Shown piece after piece: positions 7,292-57,493 of a stretch of 64,000 nt of DNA (positions within the stretch are counted from its first letter, which is position 1; each line of letters starts with the position of its first letter). Under the pieces are notes generated by a model, which searched no databases, was not told the origin of the DNA, and saw only the letters and a list, made by a program, of their open reading frames with translations. The DNA comes from Mariniblastus sp. (GTDB lineage: Bacteria > Planctomycetota > Planctomycetia > Pirellulales > Pirellulaceae), in contig JAQXDZ010000008.1 of NCBI GenBank assembly GCA_029251085.1, positions 1 to 64,000 of the forward strand. The letters are read 5' to 3'. Position numbers and translations under genes: made by a program.

Positions 7292-8683
7292 GTGTCGAAG
7301 GATCGGAATGTCGATGTAGTGGTGATTGGCTCGGGCCCCGGTGGAGAGGGGGCTGCGATGCAGCTTGCCAAAGCTGGAAAGCGTGTTCTGTTGGTCGAGC
7401 GATACGACCGGATTGGTGGCGGTTGTACTCACTGGGGGACGATACCGAGTAAGGCTTTGCGGTATTCTATTAACCGTTTGACTGAGGCGCTCAACAATCC
7501 GCTGTTCCAAGAGTGTGGGGTCAATGTAAAACCGAGTGTTGCGGAGTTAACGCGGGCTGCGAAGGAAGTGATTTCAAGCCAGGAAACGATGCGCCGCAAC
7601 TTCTACACTCGCAATGACGTTGAAGTGGCATTTGGACATGCTCGATTTGAGGATGCCAATACGATTTCGATCAACGAGGAAGATCGGGTCACTACTAAGA
7701 ATGTCGTGATTGCCGTTGGCTCACGCCCCTATCATCCCGAGGGAGTTGATTTCTCTCATCCCCGGATTTTTGACAGTGACACCATACTTAAGTTGGATCA
7801 TAAACCGCATTCCATTACAGTTTTGGGCGCCGGTGTGATCGGCTGTGAATACGCTTCAATGTTTCGCAACCTGTCAATCAAAATAAATCTCGTAAATAGT
7901 CGCAGTGAATTACTTGATTTCCTGGATGATGAAATCAGTGATGCCTTGAGTTATCACATGCGTGAACATGGTGTCGTCATTCGTCACAACGAGAGTTTCG
8001 AAAAAATTGAAGCGTTGGACGATGGAGTGATTGCTCACATGAAGAGCGGAAAGCACTTCAAAACCGATATTCTGTTGTGGGCTACAGGCAGAACCGGTAA
8101 CACTCAGGATTTGGGATTAGAAAAGATAGGTCTGGTGGCTGACAGTCGCGGCTATCTTGAGGTCGATGATTGTTTTCAAACGGCTTGTGAAAATGTATTT
8201 GCCGTTGGAGATGTTATCGGATTTCCTTCGCTCGCCAGTGCGGCTTACACTCAAGGTCGAGCAGCTGGAATGCGAATTCTTGGGACGGACGAAGCTCAGT
8301 GTAAGTTGGCGAGTGAGATTCCGTCGGGAATTTATACGAGTCCCGAAATTAGTTGCATTGGGAAAACAGAAAAAGAGTTGACGGAAGAAAAAGTGCCTTA
8401 TGAAATTGGAGTCGCTAATTTTAAGAGTTTAGCGCGTGCTCAAATTTTAAATCAGCGAGTTGGGATGCTGAAGCTGCTGTTCAACCGAGATACCCTCGAA
8501 ATTCTTGGGATTCACTGTTTTGGAGCAAGCGCTTCCGAGATTATTCATATCGGTCAGGCAATTATGAATCAGAAAGATGGCGCTAATACAATTAAGTATT
8601 TTACTGAAACGACATTCAATTACCCAACGATGGCGGAAGCCTATCGCGTTGCAGCGCTCAATGGATTGAATCGATTGTTTTGA
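7292..8683 (+). CDS. sthA: Soluble NAD(P) transhydrogenase
   Basis: A 463-residue flavoprotein of the disulfide reductase family. [20 protein letters not shown] is the FAD motif. The active-site stretch [17 protein letters not shown] is diagnostic for SthA: one cysteine is kept (Cys45) while the second redox cysteine of lipoamide dehydrogenases is replaced by Thr. A second Rossmann motif ([15 protein letters not shown]) binds NAD(P), and the dimerisation domain ends with [19 protein letters not shown]. The enzyme transfers hydride between NADPH and NAD in the cytosol. Translation starts at a GTG. It is the last gene of the plus-strand run, and a bidirectional-looking hairpin separates it from the convergent gene at 8756. 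Confidence 0.93.
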
Positions 8684-8703
8684 GGATTGGGTGTTTCGAA
8701 CGT

Positions 8704-8733
8704 AAAAAAGCCTCTCATGAATCGAGAGGCTTT
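8704..8733 (-). terminator. Intrinsic terminator for the minus-strand genes upstream (coordinates above)
   Basis: Ten-base inverted repeat AAAGCCTCTC / GAGAGGCTTT at 8707-8716 and 8724-8733 with a seven-base loop. Read on the minus strand the stem is followed by a run of T (six A on the plus strand from 8704), so it fits termination of the transcript ending at 8756. On the plus strand the T-run is short, but the stem could also stop sthA transcription. Confidence 0.8.
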
Positions 8734-8755
8734 GGCTTGTTGTGCGGTAGTCTTT

Positions 8756-9304
8756 TTATTTAGTTGGCGCTGTGAAATCTGTTTCTTTTCGCAACCTAAG
8801 TTTGGAATGTGAAGCCCGGATGATTGGTGGTAAGGGCTGGATTTTTCTTTTTATTGTCGCTGGCTCAATGACCGTTGTAGTTTTATCGGCGTTCGATGCA
8901 GGTTCGCTAGTTTTCGCGACGGACCACTTGTAAGAACAAGTTGGGCATTCGTAAGTTTCTTTCTTCAACACCTTAATTGTTTTCGACTTGGAAGTTGTCG
9001 GTGGGTCGCATTTGTTCCAAGGCATGCGGACCGCAGGAACGCAGATGACCTTTTCCTCAACCTTGAAGCAGGTCTTTTTTTCTGTGGATGGTTTGATCTC
9101 CAACAAGCAGTCTTCACAGGCACATTCTGGACAAGCGACGCGAGAGGATTTTCGTAATCCAATTCTTTTGAGCCGACAGTTCGCATCATCACATCCACAG
9201 TCGCTCGCGGTTGGCTCAACCTCTTGAGCGGTGCTTAGGTTTGTGCCAAGAATTACAGTGGCTGTGATTGCCAAACCAATGCAAAATTTGATTCCGTATG
9301 TCAT
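8756..9304 (-). CDS. Exported Cys-rich protein of unknown function
   Basis: I do not recognise a family. The preferred ATG at 9304 gives 182 residues starting MTYGIKFCIGLAITATVILG, a clear signal peptide ending near STAQ. A longer frame to 9364 exists but would put 20 polar residues before the signal. The mature protein has clustered cysteines (DCGCDDANC, CPECACEDC and CPTC), suggesting metal binding or disulfides, followed by a basic, Ser/Thr-rich C-terminal tail (KSKTIKVLKKET, RKIQPLPPIIRASHSKLRLR). It follows the porin gene on the same strand by about 60 bases, so the two may be co-transcribed and end at the terminator at 8704. A similar Cys-rich exported protein lies at 40397-41074. Confidence 0.7.
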   Translation of the reverse strand: MTYGIKFCIGLAITATVILGTNLSTAQEVEPTASDCGCDDANCRLKRIGLRKSSRVACPECACEDCLLEIKPSTEKKTCFKVEEKVICVPAVRMPWNKCDPPTTSKSKTIKVLKKETYECPTCSYKWSVAKTSEPASNADKTTTVIEPATIKRKIQPLPPIIRASHSKLRLRKETDFTAPTK

Positions 9305-9364
9305 TTTGTTCACTTGCGTCTTGTGAGGGATAAAACAGTTGGGTCGCACACTCGAAATTGTCAA

Positions 9365-10900
9365 TTAAAAATCGACCATCAGTCGGATACCAGCAATCTG
9401 GTAGTTCCCTTGTCCTGCTGCTTGAGCACCGGAGTGAATGTCGCCGAGGATGTAGTTGAACTGCATCCGAGCGTGAGAATTCCAGTACCAATTCATGCCA
9501 AAAGTATACGAATCAGCGTTGCCTCCGAGAACGTTGTCGTCATTGAGATCTGCGTGGGAATATCTGAACGCGACTTCCCAGGCACCCATACCTTTTTGGC
9601 GGCAGCCATCACAATCTCGCACCATAAAGAAATTTTCAAATGGCTTTAACCGTCCGAGCGTGCCAGTTTTACGATCCCAAGGGTGATGCTCTCCAGTTAG
9701 GATATAAGCAACCTGAGTGTAGAGACCATTGAATGTCACGTTCGGGCCAAATGCCGGGCGTCGTTCAACCTTGGTTTGAAGGTACTCAGATGTCCAACTG
9801 AAGGCGCCAATATTGACAACCGATTCCACTCCAAAGACGGAGTTTCTGTCGGCGCCCGCGATTCTATCTGTGTTCAGCCAGCGACTATTGGTGCGTGCTT
9901 CTGGGCGTGTGCGATAACGGGCCTGATTGTTGGTAGGCGAGTTGCCATCGGGAACCCCAAACGAGGTGCTGGCTGCGAGATGAATATAGCCGCGTCCTCC
10001 CGAGGCTTCGTCGTACCAAGCGGTTCTGGCTAATCTGCTCGCAAATTCTGGTTGGTAGTGATCACCTATATAACCGGATTTGCTCTGCGTCAATTCTTGG
10101 TTCCAGACTCCGAATCGCCAGTTCCATCCCAAATCATCGGAGTAGCCGTTACTTGAGATTCCCATTCTTCGAGCATCCTGATTAATTGCTTCGATGATGA
10201 AGGGGCGTTCAATGAAAATGTTGTATCGGCTGCTGTTCAAATGGTCTAATCCGTAAGGCCGCTTTTGATTTCCAATTAAAACAGTTCTGAATAAGGGCAG
10301 GTCTTTGAAGCCAATAAAAGCATCGCGGTAAGAAGTTGCCACGCCTCCCGCAAATTCCCATTCGAATTTGTAGAGCATGTTGTCATTAAGATCCCCCGAG
10401 ACTCCAAGCCGCATTCGGCGAAAATTAAAACGGTCCTGTGGATTGCCACCGGCTTCCAGTGGGAACAGTGTCTCGTCAACATTTGGGAATGCCCAATAGT
10501 CGGTATGAATGCGACCGAAGAGTTTGAGTTTCGGGCTCTTGTGGCCATGAACTACATACCCTGGGGCGGCTGATTCTAATTTGTCGATCGAGTTCTCTTG
10601 AGCACTAAGTGCATCCTCAAAAAAGGAGAGACGCTTTCCCAGGGTGCTCTGATCATCCGGCGTCGACGGGCCAGTTTTTAATTTGTTGGCGACGTCGACT
10701 TCAAGCTCTCTCAGGCGCGCTTCGAGTATTGCAATTTTCTTGGTTGCTTCGTCCTCTTCTTGGCTAACGAAGCTGTAGGCGGCACTCGAAGTTGTAAGTC
10801 CTGAGGTGGCGGTTTGCTGGACTGGAACGGTCTGCCCAATCGCAAAGTTGAAAAACCCGCTGACCACCAAAAGTGTTGAGATTGAGAATTTCGCTAGCAT
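9365..10900 (-). CDS. OprO/OprP-type outer-membrane porin
   Basis: An outer-membrane protein of 511 residues from the ATG at 10900 (GGAAC upstream; a TTG at 10921 is less likely). It has a signal peptide (FSISTLLVVSGFFNFAIGQ) and a helical, coiled-coil stretch around residues 45-110 (IAILEARLRELEVDVANKL, then LSFFEDALSAQENSIDKLE) that may form a stalk or bind the cell wall. The rest is a barrel with the OprO/P hallmarks RFNFRRMRLGVSGDL, DAFIGFKDLPLFRTVLIGNQ and a C-terminal strand ending in Phe (IRLMVDF). The family forms trimeric anion or phosphate channels, but planctomycete members need not be phosphate-selective. The gene is probably monocistronic with the Cys-rich gene downstream as a possible partner. 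Confidence 0.88.
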   Translation of the reverse strand: MLAKFSISTLLVVSGFFNFAIGQTVPVQQTATSGLTTSSAAYSFVSQEEDEATKKIAILEARLRELEVDVANKLKTGPSTPDDQSTLGKRLSFFEDALSAQENSIDKLESAAPGYVVHGHKSPKLKLFGRIHTDYWAFPNVDETLFPLEAGGNPQDRFNFRRMRLGVSGDLNDNMLYKFEWEFAGGVATSYRDAFIGFKDLPLFRTVLIGNQKRPYGLDHLNSSRYNIFIERPFIIEAINQDARRMGISSNGYSDDLGWNWRFGVWNQELTQSKSGYIGDHYQPEFASRLARTAWYDEASGGRGYIHLAASTSFGVPDGNSPTNNQARYRTRPEARTNSRWLNTDRIAGADRNSVFGVESVVNIGAFSWTSEYLQTKVERRPAFGPNVTFNGLYTQVAYILTGEHHPWDRKTGTLGRLKPFENFFMVRDCDGCRQKGMGAWEVAFRYSHADLNDDNVLGGNADSYTFGMNWYWNSHARMQFNYILGDIHSGAQAAGQGNYQIAGIRLMVDF

Positions 10901-12762: not shown

Positions 12763-15700
12763 CAACGTCCTCCGTCACCTTGATGAAAATTTGTAGTTGG
12801 CCATCGCCAACGTTGCACTCTTTTGCATCAGCTACATCTGACGGTTCTTCAATGCCCAGACGAGTGGCGAGTGTCTCGCCTTTCAGATACGCGGTGTTTT
12901 CTAAAATTGCCTGTTTCAGATCCTCTGAGTCGGTGACGAGATTCAATTCGATGCGATCGGATCGTTCGAGATCGAGTTCCTTACGTCGATCCTGAACAAG
13001 ACGATTGACATCCCGAGCGAGTCCTGAGCGGATTAACTCCGGTGTTAATTCTGTGGCAAGGACGATTACGGCTTGAGGCCCCTGTGCCGCTGCCCAGCCG
13101 TCATTTGCCTGAAGTCGGACTTCAACATCGTCTTGATCGAGTGCGATCACTTGATCTTCAATGGTGAGTGAGGACTGCTGTGTCTGGGTCAGTTCAGCGA
13201 GCATGGCTGCTCCGTCCGCTGCCTGAAATGCCGCTTTGAGCTTAGGCATTAATTTGCCAACGCGTGGCCCAAGGCGTTTGAAATTTGGAACGACTTGGTA
13301 GGTGACGAATTCACCTGCATCGGTCGTATAGGTCACCTGATTAACATTGAGCTCTGTTTTCAGCAGTTCGTCGTGCGTCTCAAGCCACGCTTGGTCGTGG
13401 GGTTCATTGAGGACGACCGTTACCCCTGAGAGTGGTTGCCGTACTTTTAGTTGAGCACTCATTCGAGCAGAGAGACCCGATGAGGCAATTTCACGAAGCA
13501 GTCCCATTCGACGAGATAGATCTTCATCAATCATCGATGGGTCAGGTGTTGGGAAGTCACACAGATGAACGCTCTCAATGGCACGCCCCTCAAACACACT
13601 GCTAAGGTTTTGCCAAATGGTTTCAGCCATGAATGGAACAAATGGTGCGACCATTTTCGCGGTGGTCGTTAGGCACTCGTAGAGCGTCCAGTAGGCGTCA
13701 AGTTTCTCGGGAGCCGATTTGTCTTTGGACCAAAATCGATCCCGGCTTCGTCGGACGTACCAATTGCTCAGGGCGTCAACAAAAGCGGTAATCTGGGTGC
13801 AGGCTCGGTAGTTGTCATACTGGTCCATGGACTCAATGACGACTGACAGAGTGCGGTGGAGTTCGCTTAAAATCCAACGATCCAGTTCGCTGCGTTGGTC
13901 AACTGGTCGATAGCCTTGGCCATCGGAGAAGTTGTCTGCTGCTAGTTGGCCGGGATTGGTGAGTGAAGCCGGTGAGAATCCGTCGAGATTGGCGTACTGG
14001 ATGAAAAATCCGTTGTAGACGTTCCAGAGTCTCAATAAGAACTCGGGGATGCTCTCTTTGATCTGTCGTTCACTATATTGGATGGAAGTCCACGGTGGTT
14101 GTTTCGCAAAGAAATACCAGCGTAATGCATCGGCTCCGTACTGGTCGAAAATTTCCTGGGGTGCCCGATAGTTGCGTAAACTCTTGGACATCTTTCCGAC
14201 GGTTTGCGTTGTTTTTGTCGGCGCTGCTTTTGCCTCTTCGGGTGTAAGGTAAATGTTTTTCTCTTTGTCCTGCCACCATTCCGAAAGCATCAAACCAAGC
14301 ACGATGCAGTTCTTGAAGGGGTGTGGATAAGGAATTGCCTTGTGCGTCTCCGACGTTTGGTCACCGAAGAGTAACGTGCTGATTGCCAATTGACTGTAGA
14401 ACCAGCCGCGAGTTTGATCGAGGGCTTCGCTAATGAAGTCCGCTGGAAACTGGGATTCGAATTTTTCTTTTCCTTGATGCGGATAGCCCCACTGAGCGAA
14501 CGGCATTGCTCCACTGTCGTACCAGCAATCGATCACTTCCGGAACGCGATGCATTCGCGCCCCTTCTTCGAACGGCGAGTCATAGGAAATGTGGTCGATA
14601 TAGGGTTTGTGAACTTTGAGGTCGTCGGGGAGTTCTGGATTGGCTGCTTTGGCTGCTTCCCAGACCTCCATTCCGGTTGCTCCCGGTTTTAATGTCAGCT
14701 CGTCCCAACTGCCGACCGCTTCAAATTTTCCAGTGCTTTCGCACGTCCAGATTGGCAGTGGGGTTCCCCAGTATCGTTCTCTTGAAAGTGCCCAGTCGAC
14801 ATTTGACTCGAGGAAATTACCGAATCTTCCGTCCTTAATGTGTTCGGGTTGCCAGTTGATCTCACGATTGTTTGCGAGCATCTGATCTTTAAATTGTGTC
14901 GTCCGGATAAACCAGCTTTCCCGAGGGTACTGAATCAGCGGGTCATCATCGGCTCTCCAACAGAAGGGGTACTCGTGTTGGTACTGTTCTTGGTGGTAGA
15001 GCTTGCCGTTGTCTTTGACATGGCGGGTGATGGGTTTGTCTGCGTCTTTGACCCATTGTCCCTCGTAATCTGGTGCTTCGTCGGTGAACTTTCCGTTGGG
15101 GCCAACGGCGCAAATCATTTTGGGCCCCTGCCCCGGCTTGTAGCGAGCCTGTTCGGCAACGAGCAGTTCGTAATCGACTTCACCGAAGGCTGGAGCTTCG
15201 TGAACCGCACCACTTCCACTATCCGTTGTCACGAAGTTCGCAGCGGTCACGCGCCATGCGAGATGTTCTTCTGTTCCGTCTAGTAGTTCGCCGGTGAGGT
15301 CAGCTTGAGTTTTGTAATAGTAATCGAATGGGGGGACGTAGCGTTCTCCGACGAGGTCCGATCCCATCTCGACTGATTTGACTTCGAGTTCACGTTTAAC
15401 TTTCAAGCTCATCTTCTCGACGAGGTCTTTTGCAAACACGATATTTTGATCCAGCTCCGCGTCGTACACCGTAACGTATTCGATTTTCTCGTTAACTGCG
15501 GCAAATTGGTTACTTGGTAAAGTCCAGGGAGTTGTCGTCCAGACGAGTAAGCTCGTATTCTCGCGATTGACTAATGGGAACAGCACATAAACCGAAGGGT
15601 CCATGACGGTTTTGTAACCCTGGCCGACTTCACCACTGCTGAGTGCGGTTCCACCTTGTGCCCACCACCAGATTATTTTGTGGCCTTTGTACAGCAAGTT

Positions 15701-28584: not shown

Positions 28585-31251
28585 ATGAATGTACGCAATG
28601 GAATCTTAAACGTTGGACTTGGTTTCGCCTTTTTTAGTTTTGCTTTTCTGGGGTGTACTGGGAGCACTGAGCCAGTCAAGAAATCCGACACTCCCCCCAA
28701 GGTTGTGGATAACGTATCTCTCTCGCCAGAACAGGTGAGCATTCAGGGGATTACAGATTCTGAGACTTTAATCCAGTCTTTATCTGCGAAGAAAAGCATG
28801 CTCGGGCGATCCCTGATTAATTCAGACGTTGATACGTCTGCATTTGTGGTTGAAGCGGTGCAGTGTCTTGGCCTGAAGGATGTAAATTTTCAAGATTTAC
28901 TAAAAGAGTCTGCAGCTGACATTTCCAAATCACCTCTCGCTGGGCAGGGGCTGGCGTCAGAAATTTTATGGCCAATTTCTGAGGAGCAGCAATCGTTGAG
29001 TCTTCGGGAAATTTGGCGACCTCTGTTACGCCAAGATAAATTCGAAAACGCCCAGTTCGGAGTGCTGTCGGGATCCGTGTTGCCCAACGGCGATTTCGAA
29101 ATGGCGACGAAGTTTGAAGGACGAATTCGCACTACTGATGGCTCGCTTTTGGGTGTGATTGGTTATCAGACTTTGGTGTGGCATCGCTCTGACGTCGACG
29201 ACTGGAAGATAGCTGAGTGGAACCAAGAGAAATTGAAAGTTATTAATTCGATTTCACCTTTGTTTGAAGACGTTACCAGTAAGGCGATTACGGATCCCGA
29301 AACGTTTAAAAAGCTGTCGACCGCTTCGCATGAACAATTAATTATCCAGCGGTGTGATGAGTTGGAGGAATCCGTGCGTCTAGCCGATGCGTCTGGCGGG
29401 CAATCTCAAAAGCAAAAAGAGGAGATGGTCGCAAATTTCGCGGCGCGTCCGGACTTTAAAGGCTGTAATGACTGGACTTCAGTGGGGCAATATCCCGCAG
29501 TCAGTTCTGTTGATTTCAATCAAGACGGTTTCGATGATTTGTTCGTGACTGATCGGTGGCAACCGCCGCAAATGCTACGAAGTAACGGTGACGGTACGTT
29601 TACCGATGTGACCAGCGAGGTTGGGCTTGAAATAGACGAGATGGTGACTTGTGGTTATTTCTTTGATTATGACAACGACGGCGACGCTGATCTGATCCTC
29701 GGCCTGTCGCTTGTACCAAGCTTGTTTTATGAAAATGACGGTGGGAAATTTATTCCTCATGCCGAAATAAATGAAGTTTTAAAGAACGCCCGTTGTGTAA
29801 ACGCGATATCCGTAGCTGATATAAATCGTGATGGTTTATTGGATTTGTACTTGAGCACTTACGCGACCGGAACTGGGCCAATTGAAGATTGGATTGGGTT
29901 CATTACCACGGAAAAAGAGCAACTGAAAACGCGTTTGAAGATTGAACGGGCTGACAAGTTTGTGGATCGGGGTGGACCGCCCAACATCTTACTAATGAAT
30001 CGCGGTGGAAATTTTGAGTGGTCAAAGATCTCGGATGAGCTGAAGCAATATCGGGGGTCCTATCAAAGTTCTTGGGTGGATTACGACAGCGACGGAGATC
30101 CGGATCTCTATGTTTGTAATGACTTTGCCCCTGATGTGTTTTTGAGAAATGATACTACGCAAGGAAGTTTCAAACCCGAGTTTGTGGATGTCACCCAAGA
30201 CATCATACCAACGATGGATATGGGGTTTGGGATGGGGTGTTCGTGGGGAGATTTTAATAATGATGGCGACCTTGATTTGTACGTCTCGAACATGTATTCG
30301 AAGGCGGGCAATCGAATCGTTGATCAAATTGAAGGTTCGGACCCGAGGCTCAAGGTGTCGGCTCACGGTAATTTTTTGTTCGAGAACGAGGGCGGTAAAT
30401 TTCGGCAAATTGCCGGGCCTGGTGAAGGTCAGCAGCATGTCGCTCGGGTAGGTTGGTCATTCGGCGGGCAATTCGCTGATTTTGACAATGATGGTGAACT
30501 TGATCTCTACGTGCCCAGCGGGTGCTATTCAGCGCCTACCGAGGTGAAAACCAAGATCGATTTGTGAAGTTGTCTATGGCGCGAGGCAGTTCGCTTCGGT
30601 GTGGGACGTGAATCTGAATTTTCGATGGCTGAGCAATGGGGGTCGTTGGAGTCGACTCGGACGATCTTTTTTGAGTGGACGGATAAGCCTCCAGAGGGCG
30701 AGCGGCACCTCAATAGTAATTCGTTAAGTGGTAAGGAACGAAACCGGATTTTTTTCCAAAGAGACGGTAATTATCAAGATCTCTCACTTGTTTCGGGGGC
30801 GGATTTTCTCTCGGACGGTCGAAGTTTTGTTCTGTTTGATTACGACCGCGACGGCTGGCTTGATCTTGGTGTCGCCAGTTCGAACCATCCTAGGTTTAGA
30901 ATCGTAAGGAATAAGATTGGAGATCTGGCCAAGATCGACAATCAGTTTCTCGAAATCTCGCTCGTCGGTGGGCAAACCTCAGCGGTGCCCAGCGGCGAGT
31001 GGAGTTCGCGAGACGCTTTTGGCGCGACGGTGAAAGTGACGACGGCGGGAACTGAGCGGCTGTTCCAGCTTTCATGTGGCGAAGGGCTTTCGGGGGTCAA
31101 CGCTCAGAGAATTCATGTTGGGTTGGGGAGCCTGAAGTCAGTTGACCGAATCGAAGTTTTGTGGCCCAGCGGAAAAGTTTCTGTTCTTGAGAATGTTGCT
31201 GCCGGAAAACGGATTACGATTTTTGAGAACCCCGAGATGTCCACAGACTAA
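28585..31251 (+). CDS. CRTAC1-like FG-GAP/UnbV lipoprotein with in-frame UGA (candidate selenoprotein), copy 1
   Basis: The frame runs from ATG 28585 to a TAA at 31251 with one internal TGA at 30565-30567 (codon 661 of 888). It begins with a lipoprotein signal (FFSFAFLGC). Residues 35-260 form an unassigned N-terminal domain (ITDSETLIQSLSAKKS, then LREIWRPLLRQ). Next come FG-GAP/VCBS repeats with calcium-type loops (FDYDNDGDADLIL, DINRDGLLDLYLS, DFNNDGDLDLYVS). After the TGA the protein continues SCLWREAVRFG and ends with an ASPIC/UnbV domain (GEGLSGVNAQRIHVGLG, VLWPSGKV). Copy 2 downstream has the same TGA and the same continuation, so a sequencing error or recent pseudogene is unlikely. If UGA is selenocysteine, the site reads U-S-C. 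Without read-through the product ends at IDL. Function is unknown; it would sit in the outer or inner membrane, facing the periplasm or outside. Confidence 0.85.
30565..30598 (+). promoter_or_regulatory. In-frame UGA with downstream stem-loop (bacterial SECIS-like candidate), copy 1
   Basis: The TGA at 30565-30567 is followed after 14 bases by the stem CGAGGC (30582-30587), loop AGTTC, stem GCTTCG (30593-30598), six pairs with one G-U. The apical loop starts 20 bases after the TGA and has GU near its start, within the loose rules for bacterial SECIS elements. The stem is short and its function is inferred. Confidence 0.5.
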
Positions 31252-31548: not shown

Positions 31549-34161
31549 ATGATATTTAAATTTGGTTATTTCTCTCTGTTGGCCTGTGCTACGACTGTTT
31601 TGATGGTGGGGTGCCGAGATGCTCCGTCGCCTCCAAAACAAGCGAAACGTGCTGTGGTCGACGAGCCAGAACTATCGAACGAGCAACTTCGAATTCGAGG
31701 AATTACCGACTCTGAGACAGTAATTCAGGGGCTCTCGGGCAAGAAGAGCATTCTGACAACCGCCCTCAAGGACGCTCAGATTGACCTCGCTGCTGTAGTG
31801 TCGGGAAAGATCAAATACGTTGGTATCGCAGACCAGACAATCGACTCGTTGTTATCTTCGGCAGAGGGGAATTCGCAAGGTTCACTCGCGACTTTTATGT
31901 ATTGGCCAATTAACCCGGAAGTTGAGTTGATTGAGTTTGCTGAAGTCTGGGCGCCGTTGCTCAAGAATGGACGTTTTGACGACACACAGCTGGGTGTTCT
32001 CAAAGGCTCGTTTAACGAGTCTGGTGTGTTCGAGATGGAGACAAAATTTGAAGGTCGGATGCTGCGAAACGGTGAGCCTCTAGGAGTCCGTGCCTATCAG
32101 ACCCTTGGGTGGCAGGAGGTTGCGGAAAACGATTGGAAACTGGTTTCTTGGAAGCAAAAAAAGTTTACCGTCATCAATTCGCCAGGGAATTTATTCGAGG
32201 AAGTTACCGCGGATTTAATTCCTGATGTTGAGACTTTGAACGCAGTCTCGACAGCAACCCACGAAGACTTAATTATCACTCGTTGCGGCGAGATGGAAAT
32301 TGTTCGTTCGCTTGAAAACGGCAAGATGGTAGAAGCACAGGCAATCAAGGAAGCCAGAGACGAATTCAAAGGCTGTAATGATTGGGGTTCAGTCGGGCAG
32401 TATCCTTCAGTCAGCGTCGTCGATTTCGATAACGATGGGTATGAGGACCTATTCATGACGGATCGTTGGCAGTCCGTTCAATTACTTCGAAATCAAGGCG
32501 ATGAGACCTTTGTCGATGTTACGAAATCGGTAGGCATCGATGTGCCAGAAATGGCGACTTGCGGATATTTCTTTGATTTTGACAACGACGGTGACTCTGA
32601 TTTGCTGATTGGCATGTCGATGGTTCCAAGTCAGTTTTTTGAAAATGTTGGCGGGAAGTTTAAGCCACATGAGGCGATTAATGAAGTGCTCCGGGAAACC
32701 CGTTTTGTTAATGCAATCTCTGTTGCAGATTTAAATCGAGACGGGCTTGAGGATCTCTATTTGAGTACCTATGCCACTGGAACTGGGCCAATTGATGATT
32801 GGATTGGATTTGTTACGCGGGAAAAGGAGCAGCTCAAAACTCGTTTGAAAATTCTTGGAAACGATAAGTTTGTCGATCGCGGGGGGCCGCCAAATATTTT
32901 GCTGATGAATCGTGGAGAGAGTTTTGAGTGGGTGAAGATGGACGACGGGTTAAAACAGTATCGGAATTCCTACCAAACGTCGTGGAATGATTATGACACC
33001 GATGGCGACCTCGATCTTTATATCTGTAATGACTTTGCCCCCGATGTTTTTCTTCGAAATGATACCGAGCGAGGTAGTTACAAGCCGGTATTTACGGACG
33101 TCACTTCGGACGTCATTCCCACCATGGATATGGGTTTTGGAATGGGTTGTTCATGGGGCGATTATGATAACGACGGTGACTTAGATCTTTATGTATCCAA
33201 TATGTATTCAAAGGCCGGTAATCGGATTGTCGATCAGGTTAAGGGCGCAGATCCACGATTAAAAGTTGCCGCTCACGGAAACTTTCTGTTCGAGAATCAA
33301 GAGGGAGTTTTTAAGCAGGTGGCGGGAGATGAGGAGGGAGAACAGCATGTCGCCCGAGTCGGATGGTCCTACGGTGGTCAGTTTGCCGATTTCGATAACG
33401 ACGGGAATTTGGATATTTACGTGCCAAGCGGATGCTACTCTGCCCCCGAGGAAGTGAAAACAAAGATTGATTTGTGAAGTTGTCTTTGGCGTGAAGCGGT
33501 TCGCTTCGGAGAGGGTCGGGGACAAGAGTTTTCAAATGCGAAAGAGTGGGGGCCGTTGGAGGAAATGCGAACCATTTATTTTGAGTGGATTGATGATCCG
33601 CAACCTGGCGAGCGGTACCTGAATAGCAACTCTCTTAGTGGCGGAGAGAGAAACCGAATTTTCTTTCGCCGCGATGGTAATTACAAAGACTACTCGCTCG
33701 TCTCTGGTGCCGATTTTCGAGAAGACGGTCGTGGGTTCGTTTTGTTAGATTTCGATAAAGACGGTTGGCTCGATCTTGGTGTGACCAGTCCAAATCATCC
33801 GCGGTTTAGGATGGTTCGCAATACGATTGGTGACCGAGGTCTTAAAGCTAATTACGTCGAAATTGAACTGGTGGGTGGGCAAACAACTGCTGTTGCCAGT
33901 GAGCAATGGAGTCCGCGAGATGCTTATGGAGCGACGGTTGCGGTTTGGCAAAATGGTGAGAAGCAAAAGCGGATGTTTCATCTATCCTGTGGCGAAGGTT
34001 TGTCAGGTGTAAATTCTAAGAGCATTCATGTCGGTATGGGCGACACGGAGAAAATCGACAAACTCGAGGTGACTTGGCCTAGCGGGAAAAAAACGACTAG
34101 AGAAAATGTGGACACCGGCCAGCGAATCAAAATATTTGAAAATCCCGCATCCGACAATTAA
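31549..34161 (+). CDS. CRTAC1-like FG-GAP/UnbV lipoprotein with in-frame UGA (candidate selenoprotein), copy 2
   Basis: Tandem paralogue of the preceding gene. The ATG at 31549 is preferred over upstream starts because it follows AAGGCTGGA and is directly followed by a lipoprotein signal (LACATTVLMVGC). The frame runs to a TAA at 34161 with one internal TGA at 33475-33477 (codon 643 of 870). Domain order matches copy 1: N-terminal domain (ITDSETVIQGLSGKKS), FG-GAP repeats (FDFDNDGDSDLLIG, DYDNDGDLDLYVS), then after the TGA SCLWREAVRFGEGR and a UnbV domain (GEGLSGVNSKSIHVGMG, VTWPSGKK). The two copies are similar on both sides of the TGA, and the stretch YSAPxEVKTKIDL-x-SCLWREAVRFG is the best conserved of all. 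Changes here are synonymous only. Possible redox residues nearby are the Cys of SGCYSAP and the U-S-C pair. Partner proteins and substrate are unknown. Confidence 0.85.
33475..33508 (+). promoter_or_regulatory. In-frame UGA with downstream stem-loop (bacterial SECIS-like candidate), copy 2
   Basis: The TGA at 33475-33477 is followed after 14 bases by the stem TGAAGC (33492-33497), loop GGTTC, stem GCTTCG (33503-33508); the first and last loop bases can also pair, leaving a GTT loop. Compared with copy 1, two stem positions changed (C-G to U-G, G-U to A-U) and pairing is kept. Position and loop match copy 1 exactly. Confidence 0.5.
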
Positions 34162-56199: not shown

Positions 56200-56317
56200 A
56201 TGTAAGTTGGGGTTCTCAGGAACGACTTTGGCTTGACTGTTTTCAGGCCAGAGTCTGCTTGGACTGATCGTGAATCTCTAAAACTATCAAGGTGCTTATT
56301 TGAAAGTTGGAAGTCCC

Positions 56318-57493
56318 GTGAAAGTGTTGGTCCAGTTGATGACGTTGATGGTTCTATTCTGTTTAGTTCTCGGCGAACCCGCGACACTGAGAGGTGTTCA
56401 GCAAACTCCGATTTCCGACCGTATCTTAGTTTCTAATTCCCGCACGAGTCTCGGTACGCAGAAAAATTTAACGGCTTCTGTTCGTGTCGGCGATTTGAAT
56501 GCAGACGGGAATATCGATGTTGTCGTTGCCAACGGTAGACATTGGCCGCAGCAGAATCTCATTTTCCTGAATCAGGGAAATGCTCGTTTTAATCAAGTCT
56601 GGTCGCTGGGGGCCAATCAATCGACATCTTACGCTTCAGAGATCGCGGATATGGATGGTGATGGTGATCTCGATGTCGTTGTTGGAAACGATATGGCGCC
56701 GAATTTACTCTTTCTGAATAACGGGCGTGCTGAGTTCCAGAAGGGTGTGCCGTTCGGGACCGTCTCGAGTGTGCGAAGTCTGACCTTGAGTGACCTGGAT
56801 AGCGATGGTGATGTCGATGTTTTGGTGACTTGCCGTGGTCGCCAAAATTACTTTTGTTTAAATGATGGTAAAGCGAATTTGGGAACTCCCAAGCCGTTTG
56901 GCGAGCAGAGTGATTCGACGATCGATGTTGTCGTCGCGGATTTGAATCGTGATGGTTTCAATGATCTCATACTTGCTAATCGTGACCATCAGCAGAATTT
57001 CGTTTTACTAAACGATGGGAAACTTGGGTTCGATCAGAAGATCCCGTTTGGAACCGGAACGGACGAAACGCGTTCGGTTGCGGTGGGCGATCTTAACGGT
57101 GACGGCCATCTCGATCTGGCACTTGCGAACATTGGTGAGCCGAATCAGATTTTATTTGGAAATGGTAAGGGAGGTTTTGGCGATTCGAAATTGTTAAGCG
57201 AATCCCGCAACAGTTCCTACGCGGTTGCTCTCGCTGATATGAATCAGGATAAAGTGCCGGATTTAGTTTTTGCCAACGTCGGCCAAGCCAATACCATGTA
57301 TTTGAATCAAGGTGACGGAAAACGTTACGCAATCTCTCAATTTGGTTTACCAGAGGCGAGAACATACGGGCTGGTAGTGGAAGATTTTAACGGGGATTCC
57401 TATCCGGATGTTTTGACCGCCAATTCAGACGCATTGAACTGGGTCTATCTGAATCGGCCCTTGAATCGCGCTAAACGCAAGATTAAAGAGTGA
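56318..57493 (+). CDS. Exported FG-GAP/VCBS repeat protein
   Basis: A protein of about 391 residues from the GTG at 56318 (GGA seven bases upstream); a TTG at 56300 is an alternative. It has a hydrophobic signal (LMTLMVLFCLVLGE) and a repeat region with at least six DxDxDG-like calcium loops: DLNADGNIDVVV, DMDGDGDLDVVV, DLDSDGDVDVLV, DLNRDGFNDLIL, DLNGDGHLDLAL and DFNGDSYPDVLT. This is a seven-blade-type beta-propeller of the integrin-alpha-like family. There is no UnbV domain or TGA here, unlike the CRTAC1-like pair. It ends in a basic tail (NRAKRKIKE). It lies after the GH16 gene; a role in binding at the cell surface is possible but not shown. Confidence 0.85.
   Translation: MKVLVQLMTLMVLFCLVLGEPATLRGVQQTPISDRILVSNSRTSLGTQKNLTASVRVGDLNADGNIDVVVANGRHWPQQNLIFLNQGNARFNQVWSLGANQSTSYASEIADMDGDGDLDVVVGNDMAPNLLFLNNGRAEFQKGVPFGTVSSVRSLTLSDLDSDGDVDVLVTCRGRQNYFCLNDGKANLGTPKPFGEQSDSTIDVVVADLNRDGFNDLILANRDHQQNFVLLNDGKLGFDQKIPFGTGTDETRSVAVGDLNGDGHLDLALANIGEPNQILFGNGKGGFGDSKLLSESRNSSYAVALADMNQDKVPDLVFANVGQANTMYLNQGDGKRYAISQFGLPEARTYGLVVEDFNGDSYPDVLTANSDALNWVYLNRPLNRAKRKIKE

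Follow-up and report, generated by a model that had tools for sequence, protein, structure and literature searches.

Two neighbouring genes in the window (the whole 64,000-nucleotide stretch of Mariniblastus sp. DNA analysed here) encode CRTAC1-like proteins, and each is interrupted by a single in-frame TGA. The question raised by this locus is whether that codon ends translation or is decoded. The earlier note on this DNA inferred that UGA is read as selenocysteine (Sec), and this inference is supported by SelB, tRNA-Sec and a conserved, covarying SECIS-like hairpin. We assign a probability of roughly 0.93 to the reading of UGA as selenocysteine in both genes and in the family to which they belong, without any protein or selenium measurement. 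Computation shows a conserved, UGA-specific site, the decoding machinery, a hairpin and a confident fold across the UGA. The actual insertion of Sec is inferred from established knowledge, namely that SelB and Sec-tRNA decode UGA codons of the bacterial SECIS (bSECIS) type.

Two putative lipoprotein genes with an internal TGA

The features of the two genes, all on the forward strand, are as follows.

28585..31251 (+), copy 1, entire coding sequence of 888 residues, counting the proposed Sec661 at the UGA
28585..28656 (+), copy 1, signal peptide with a lipobox-like F-L-G-C end (Cys24), assigned by eye without a predictor
30565..30567 (+), copy 1, TGA, proposed Sec codon (Sec661)
30582..30598 (+), copy 1, proposed bacterial SECIS hairpin, stem CGAGGC/GCTTCG, loop AGTTC, 20 nt after the TGA
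31015..31218 (+), copy 1, UnbV_ASPIC domain, downstream of the TGA
31549..34161 (+), copy 2, entire coding sequence of 870 residues, counting the proposed Sec643 at the UGA
33475..33477 (+), copy 2, TGA, proposed Sec codon (Sec643)
33492..33508 (+), copy 2, proposed bacterial SECIS hairpin, stem TGAAGC/GCTTCG, loop GGTTC
33922..34128 (+), copy 2, UnbV_ASPIC domain

Copy 1 extends from an ATG at 28585 to a TAA ending at 31251, and the TGA at 30565-30567 is its sole interruption; mechanical ORF calling splits the gene there into products of 660 and 216 amino acids. Likewise, the frame of copy 2 (31549-34161) is broken only by the TGA at 33475-33477. FG-GAP repeats and UnbV_ASPIC exceed the Pfam cut-offs in both copies, and the latter domain, found past the TGA, scores 63.8 bits in copy 1 and 56.3 bits in copy 2 (cut-off 23.4), which bears out the claim that the frame continues beyond the TGA in both genes. 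The 19 codons flanking the TGA are, as had been described, identical in protein, and the eight that differ in DNA all do so synonymously. A signal peptide ending in L-G-C marks a lipoprotein, and export in this form is inferred from this rule. TGA was also said to serve as an ordinary stop nearby, and it does: the 38 other window ORFs that were checked end in TGA (11), TAA (19) or TAG (8). At gathering thresholds, Rfam has no match anywhere in the window. Another ORF, at 56300-57493 (+), has weak FG-GAP-like similarity to copy 1 (E 2.9e-4 over 56480-56827) and no internal TGA.

When the genome from which the window comes was searched with copy 1, seven full-length FG-GAP/UnbV (CRTAC1-like) paralogues were found, each having one internal TGA; besides the two window copies, contig C165 contributes two and C13 three. 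The earlier note placed the TGA at the same position in two copies; this observation was right, and upon alignment all seven TGAs fall in one column within the invariant context U-S-C-L-W-R, although the genes form a large family rather than a pair. The terminal stop is also TGA in four of the seven paralogues; thus, the same gene family uses UGA both ways. A PF07593 search of this genome detects nine UnbV domains, and two UnbV genes, encoding proteins of 861 and 506 amino acids, have no TGA. The 861-aa protein (contig C22, 4985-9022) has an N-terminal stretch that, judging from its motif (TGCVATCPK), resembles SCO1.

The UGA column, the hairpin and the decoding machinery

Homologues were sampled with profiles built from TGA-containing genes, and the best matches were listed, so these samples do not show how common TGA is across UnbV proteins in general. 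With all stops read through, the codon at the site is TGA in 135 of 163 distinct homologues and a sense codon in 28, and it is never TAA or TAG; elsewhere, only four stops occur in 89,110 homologue codons, two of them UGA. The same TGA column in 7/7 paralogues and in 135/163 homologues, without TAA or TAG, excludes chance. The 149 genomes of the same family gave matches at E <= 1e-60 in 33 cases, with no more than six candidates scored in any genome. TGA is present in every one of the 87 matches listed; it occurs once and is the only stop in 84, is joined by a TAA in two and occurs twice in one. A phylum-wide search of 392 genomes gave matches at 1e-40 in 166; among the 150 matches listed (more exist), 136 contain at least one TGA and 14 are stop-free. 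Distinct rows from named contigs that have TGA in this column come from Planctomycetota (13), Verrucomicrobiota (15), Myxococcota (4), Acidobacteriota (2) and Latescibacterota (1), together with two unclassified records. The occurrence of one UGA site in many related genes of several phyla suggests that a large family of selenium proteins has been missed. A single scan of viral contigs found no relative, and among 53 plasmid records none covered 80% of the query (identity 24-27% among the ten listed).

The number of UGA copies per genome varies. A genome of the same family, G004 (95% complete), has 61 matches at 1e-20, of which 24 are UnbV genes whose TGA at the site was confirmed one by one. 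Without codon-level checks, TGA is borne by 24 of the 32 matches listed in G063, some of them at contig ends, and by 15 of the 20 listed in G070; low copy numbers are found in G465 (5/5 matches) and G251 (2/3), two genomes that had been selected for high initial counts. One homologue, L201 (G168:C78:24011-25708), contains two in-frame TGAs in addition to the one at the site, located 21 and 25 codons further on; the three may represent several Sec residues or damage. Moreover, a metagenome-assembled record titled Akkermansia muciniphila (L063; label unverified) contains two UGA UnbV genes.

The sequence around the site follows the motif D-x-U-[S/T]-x-x-W-[R/S]. Cys at U+2 is restricted to some subfamilies; the residue is otherwise N, F, V, D, E, S, Q or others, so a U-x-C pair is not a shared mechanism. 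The U-S-C pair was therefore rejected as a general active site, and on this point the earlier note, which had proposed it, does not hold. Nor do the proteins fit the thiol-redox type with a UxxC, UxC or CxxU pair, as no conserved Cys adjoins the Sec.

According to the legend of Fig 2A in PMC13188914, a bSECIS has its loop 16-37 nt after the UGA, a G in the first two loop positions and an energy of at most -7.5. These rules were applied to 75 of 76 distinct sites; L090, a 63-residue match, was left out. Nucleotides 10-34 after the UGA reach p <= 0.05 against synonymous-codon shuffles at 56% of the 75 sites (mean z -1.85), whereas 1-9% do so at eight control offsets in the same genes. As one unbroken helix at -7.5 kcal/mol, the rules are met at 47/75 sites versus 0-9 at eleven control offsets. 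The commonest loop is GGUC starting 17 nt after the UGA (23/75), and GGUCG is found in 14 more. The sites fall into four classes of pairing register: A1 (36 rows), A2 (4, the class of the window), B (25) and C (10). Pair 14-24 of class B takes the forms A-U, C-G, G-C, U-A and G-U, and 23 of the 25 rows are paired there (20 at most in shuffles). Class A1 preserves pair 12-25 in 33/34 (31 at most in shuffles); in particular, three W-S-T-V-V-L rows have A-U at this pair, both encoded arginines having changed together, and in L034 only its first side has changed and the pair is lost. For class A2, a pairing sum of 44 fits better than one of 39. The codon of the loop valine is GTC in 61/67 cases, compared with a background of 36%. 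Thus, at the level of the family the hairpin fits the bSECIS model, covaries and outdoes synonymous shuffles at the UGA site only. The two window hairpins, CGAGGC-AGUUC-GCUUCG and UGAAGC-GGUUC-GCUUCG, have six pairs, lie 20 nt after the UGA and satisfy the rules for loop, stem and spacing, but as isolated helices they reach -6.7 kcal/mol rather than the published -7.5, and their whole-fold z values are -1.54 (copy 1) and -0.59 (copy 2). Taken alone, they are modest evidence.

As a check, the earlier note had named a search for selB, selC and selD, and SelB (367 bits, cut-off 242), tRNA-Sec (67.4 bits, anticodon TCA) and a protein with a SelD domain (TIGR00476, 255.5 bits, cut-off 125) are all present in the genome. 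The refuting condition named there, absence of selB and selC, is thus not fulfilled. The SelD domain forms the C-terminal portion of an oxidoreductase fusion of 738 aa (G000:C164:3027-3935; L028, L240), which also matches TIGR04369, fusion_not_SelD, below its cut-off (399.7 vs 700). This fusion is the only strong SelD match, and a role for it in making selenophosphate is merely putative. SelA was not located, only some ORFs near SelB, tRNA-Sec and SelD having been inspected. In a genome of the same genus, G134 (contig C118, L243), a tRNA-Sec gene (14380-14475) lies approx. 3.6 kb downstream of a UGA UnbV gene (8229-10808), whereas tRNA-Sec and the UGA UnbV genes are on separate contigs in the genome of the window.

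Across the family, SelB exceeds the cut-off in 76 of 149 genomes, and it is found in 30/33 genomes with TGA-UnbV genes versus 46/116 others (Fisher p 8e-8). When completeness of at least 90% and contamination of no more than 5% are required, the figures are 20/20 and 32/87 (p 5e-8); the Fisher tests ignore the relatedness of the genomes. The three genomes that lack SelB (G034, G063 and G065) are 72-86% complete and all contain tRNA-Sec, so that SelB and/or tRNA-Sec accompany the TGA-UnbV genes in 33/33 family genomes. Six genomes with neither SelB nor TGA-UnbV genes were tested, and tRNA-Sec is absent from five of them and present in G002.

A putative route through the UGA and its rivals

If the UGA is read as Sec, these genes would represent an undescribed family of bacterial selenoproteins. 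SelB would deliver Sec-tRNA to the internal UGA, guided by the hairpin approx. 17-21 nt downstream, and translation would continue to yield a single exported lipoprotein in which an FG-GAP β-propeller is followed by the UnbV domain. The Sec residue is predicted to begin a short helix within a loop between propeller strands. An AlphaFold model of copy 1, built from a 38-row alignment with Cys in place of Sec, has a pLDDT of 89.0 and a pTM of 0.89; in this model, residue 661 opens helix 661-670, with strands on both sides. In the model of L096, which belongs to hairpin class B (pLDDT 86.0), the site residue 371 lies within helix 370-381. Judging from the copy 1 model, a product terminated at the UGA would be deprived of the strands after residue 696 and of UnbV.

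That the UGA is a true stop, in genes that are broken, wrongly assembled or encode two separate proteins, agrees with the two ORFs (660 and 216 aa) returned by ORF calling; this possibility is hardly credible given that the seven paralogues and 135 homologues have the same UGA with an intact frame afterwards, that a confident AlphaFold model spans the site and that the hairpin is under selection. The case that had been made against a pseudogene or assembly error is strengthened accordingly, and homologues that truly end at the TGA, which were to refute the selenocysteine reading, are not what is seen: the homologues run on past it.

Reading of the codon without selenium by a near-cognate tRNA (Trp, Cys or Arg), as a programmed leak yielding both a truncated and an extended product, would also explain why the frame is conserved beyond the UGA and would accommodate the non-Cys residues found at the site in some stop-free homologues. 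It is nevertheless quite improbable, as it assigns no role to the co-occurrence with SelB and tRNA-Sec or to a hairpin that obeys the SECIS rules at the right distance. Genome-wide reassignment of UGA to sense can be practically dismissed: its sole support is the in-frame UGA itself, while UGA ends 11/38 window ORFs and 4/7 paralogues and merely two further UGAs occur in the 89,110 homologue codons. Decoding as selenocysteine by SelB therefore remains the preferred reading.

Relation to known selenoproteins and possible chemistry

Copies 1 and 2 share their domains with CRTAC1/ASPIC-UnbV proteins (PF07593 with FG-GAP_3, PF13517). The best fold match is murine CRTAC1 (9etn_A; E 2.5e-25, TM 0.69 by target length), and there is a profile match at E 1.4e-10. 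They differ in carrying the UGA/Sec loop, which the two other UnbV genes of the genome, having no TGA, do not encode. To our knowledge, neither CRTAC1 nor UnbV proteins have been described as selenoproteins, and we know of no established biochemistry for UnbV proteins. Foldseek places an enzyme, aldos-2-ulose dehydratase (PDB 4a7y), at rank 14 (E 1.1e-6), but it is a poor global match (TM 0.28, 9% identity), and no selenium link is known to us for it.

With the SelB-read bacterial selenoproteins, 119 families of which are tabulated in PMC13188914, the UGA UnbV proteins have UGA, hairpin, SelB and tRNA-Sec in common. According to that paper, most characterized bacterial selenoproteins have a thioredoxin-like fold, in contrast to a propeller without a conserved UxxC, CxxU or UxC pair. 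Table 1 of the paper (May 2026), which includes families credited to Haft and Tolstoy 2025 (its reference 64), has no UnbV, FG-GAP or CRTAC1 entry, and no other FG-GAP propeller was recognized in it. Selenoproteins of planctomycetes as such are already known (PMC4807772), and the main text of that report on selenoprotein candidates from two planctomycetes contains no mention of UnbV or CRTAC. In the open-access literature, no CRTAC1, UnbV, FG-GAP, VCBS or Pirellulaceae protein of this selenoprotein kind was found among the papers listed, nor, among those listed for it, a comparable selenocysteine β-propeller. No NCBIfam 20.0 model scores above its cut-off; only weak matches below it were obtained, two in copy 1 and one in copy 2. 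As ORF calling cuts the genes at the UGA and no NCBIfam model matches, planctomycete, verrucomicrobial and other UnbV genes are probably often mis-annotated, though RefSeq and GenBank annotations were not consulted. We conclude that the UGA UnbV genes form a new selenoprotein family with unusual features and that the type of decoding itself is known.

The residues that replace Sec are among these features. All 14 stop-free matches listed in the phylum search have Glu (5), Ala (4), Asn (2), Arg (2) or Asp (1) at the site and keep S-x-x-W. Aligned homologues had also been suggested as a place to look for Cys or U, and six close homologues, spread over four genomes, do have Cys there (L197, L199, L234, L247, L248 and L249). 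It is thus the minority among close stop-free homologues, 6 versus 14 with Glu, Asp, Ala, Asn or Arg, which distinguishes the family from typical selenoproteins. A Bdellovibrionia protein has Ser, and in the remaining distant rows the position is gapped or filled by unrelated letters. A rough FastTree was built from 169 rows, without identical rows and rows covering <75% of the profile (alignment A3 also omits L061 and one L069 site because of length). On this tree, the non-Sec label needs at least nine changes, five of them forced by well-supported branches, and all 14 non-Cys stop-free rows have a Sec row among their four nearest.

Selenoproteins without Cys homologues may be filtered out by the deep-Sep method, as its own paper (PMC12013277) states. 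It can be inferred that Cys-homologue filters are the reason why the UGA UnbV family was missed, and the non-Cys replacements point to a blind spot in discovery methods that require such homologues. The largest total in the same source is at least 46 selenoprotein genes, from all families, in one bacterium; G004 alone has 24 verified UGA copies of a single family. It is conceivable, if rather doubtful, that Sec is here not merely a better cysteine but a residue of a surface propeller whose place is taken by Glu, Asp, Ala, Asn or Arg more frequently than by Cys, perhaps because it serves as a metal ligand or because the enzyme repeatedly turns into a non-catalytic binder. If so, with two dozen UGA genes of one family per genome, some Pirellulaceae-like planctomycetes would be among the most selenium-dependent bacteria.

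The Sec site offers UnbV proteins a testable active site. Besides Ca-type aspartates, the residues invariant in the 38 rows include M550, M570, S572, W624, D659, W665, S715 and E718; from the order of the repeats, without distances, several are inferred to sit in loops that surround the Sec loop on one face. A Sec at the start of a helix with Trp and Arg close in sequence is, we assume, reminiscent of peroxidases. Tentatively, and with less than even confidence, Sec may perform catalysis in a peroxidase- or reductase-like redox enzyme outside the cytoplasm, one that lacks a conserved neighbouring Cys and builds its site from conserved propeller loops. A role of Sec as a metal ligand is not excluded.

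The gene neighbourhood reveals no consistent partner; ten ORFs near the copies in this genome and in G134 belong to unrelated families or have no match. CRTAC1-family genes, which may or may not contain the UGA, adjoin hydrazine-synthase-like genes according to PMC12758564. Downstream of class C UGA UnbV genes, L091 (7212-8414) and L092 (9887-11050) encode proteins with seven CxxCH motifs, which are cytochrome c554/c7-like in Pfam, and L083 is flanked by a cytochrome c gene and a di-haem oxidoreductase-like gene. These haem-protein neighbours are only hints of redox chemistry.
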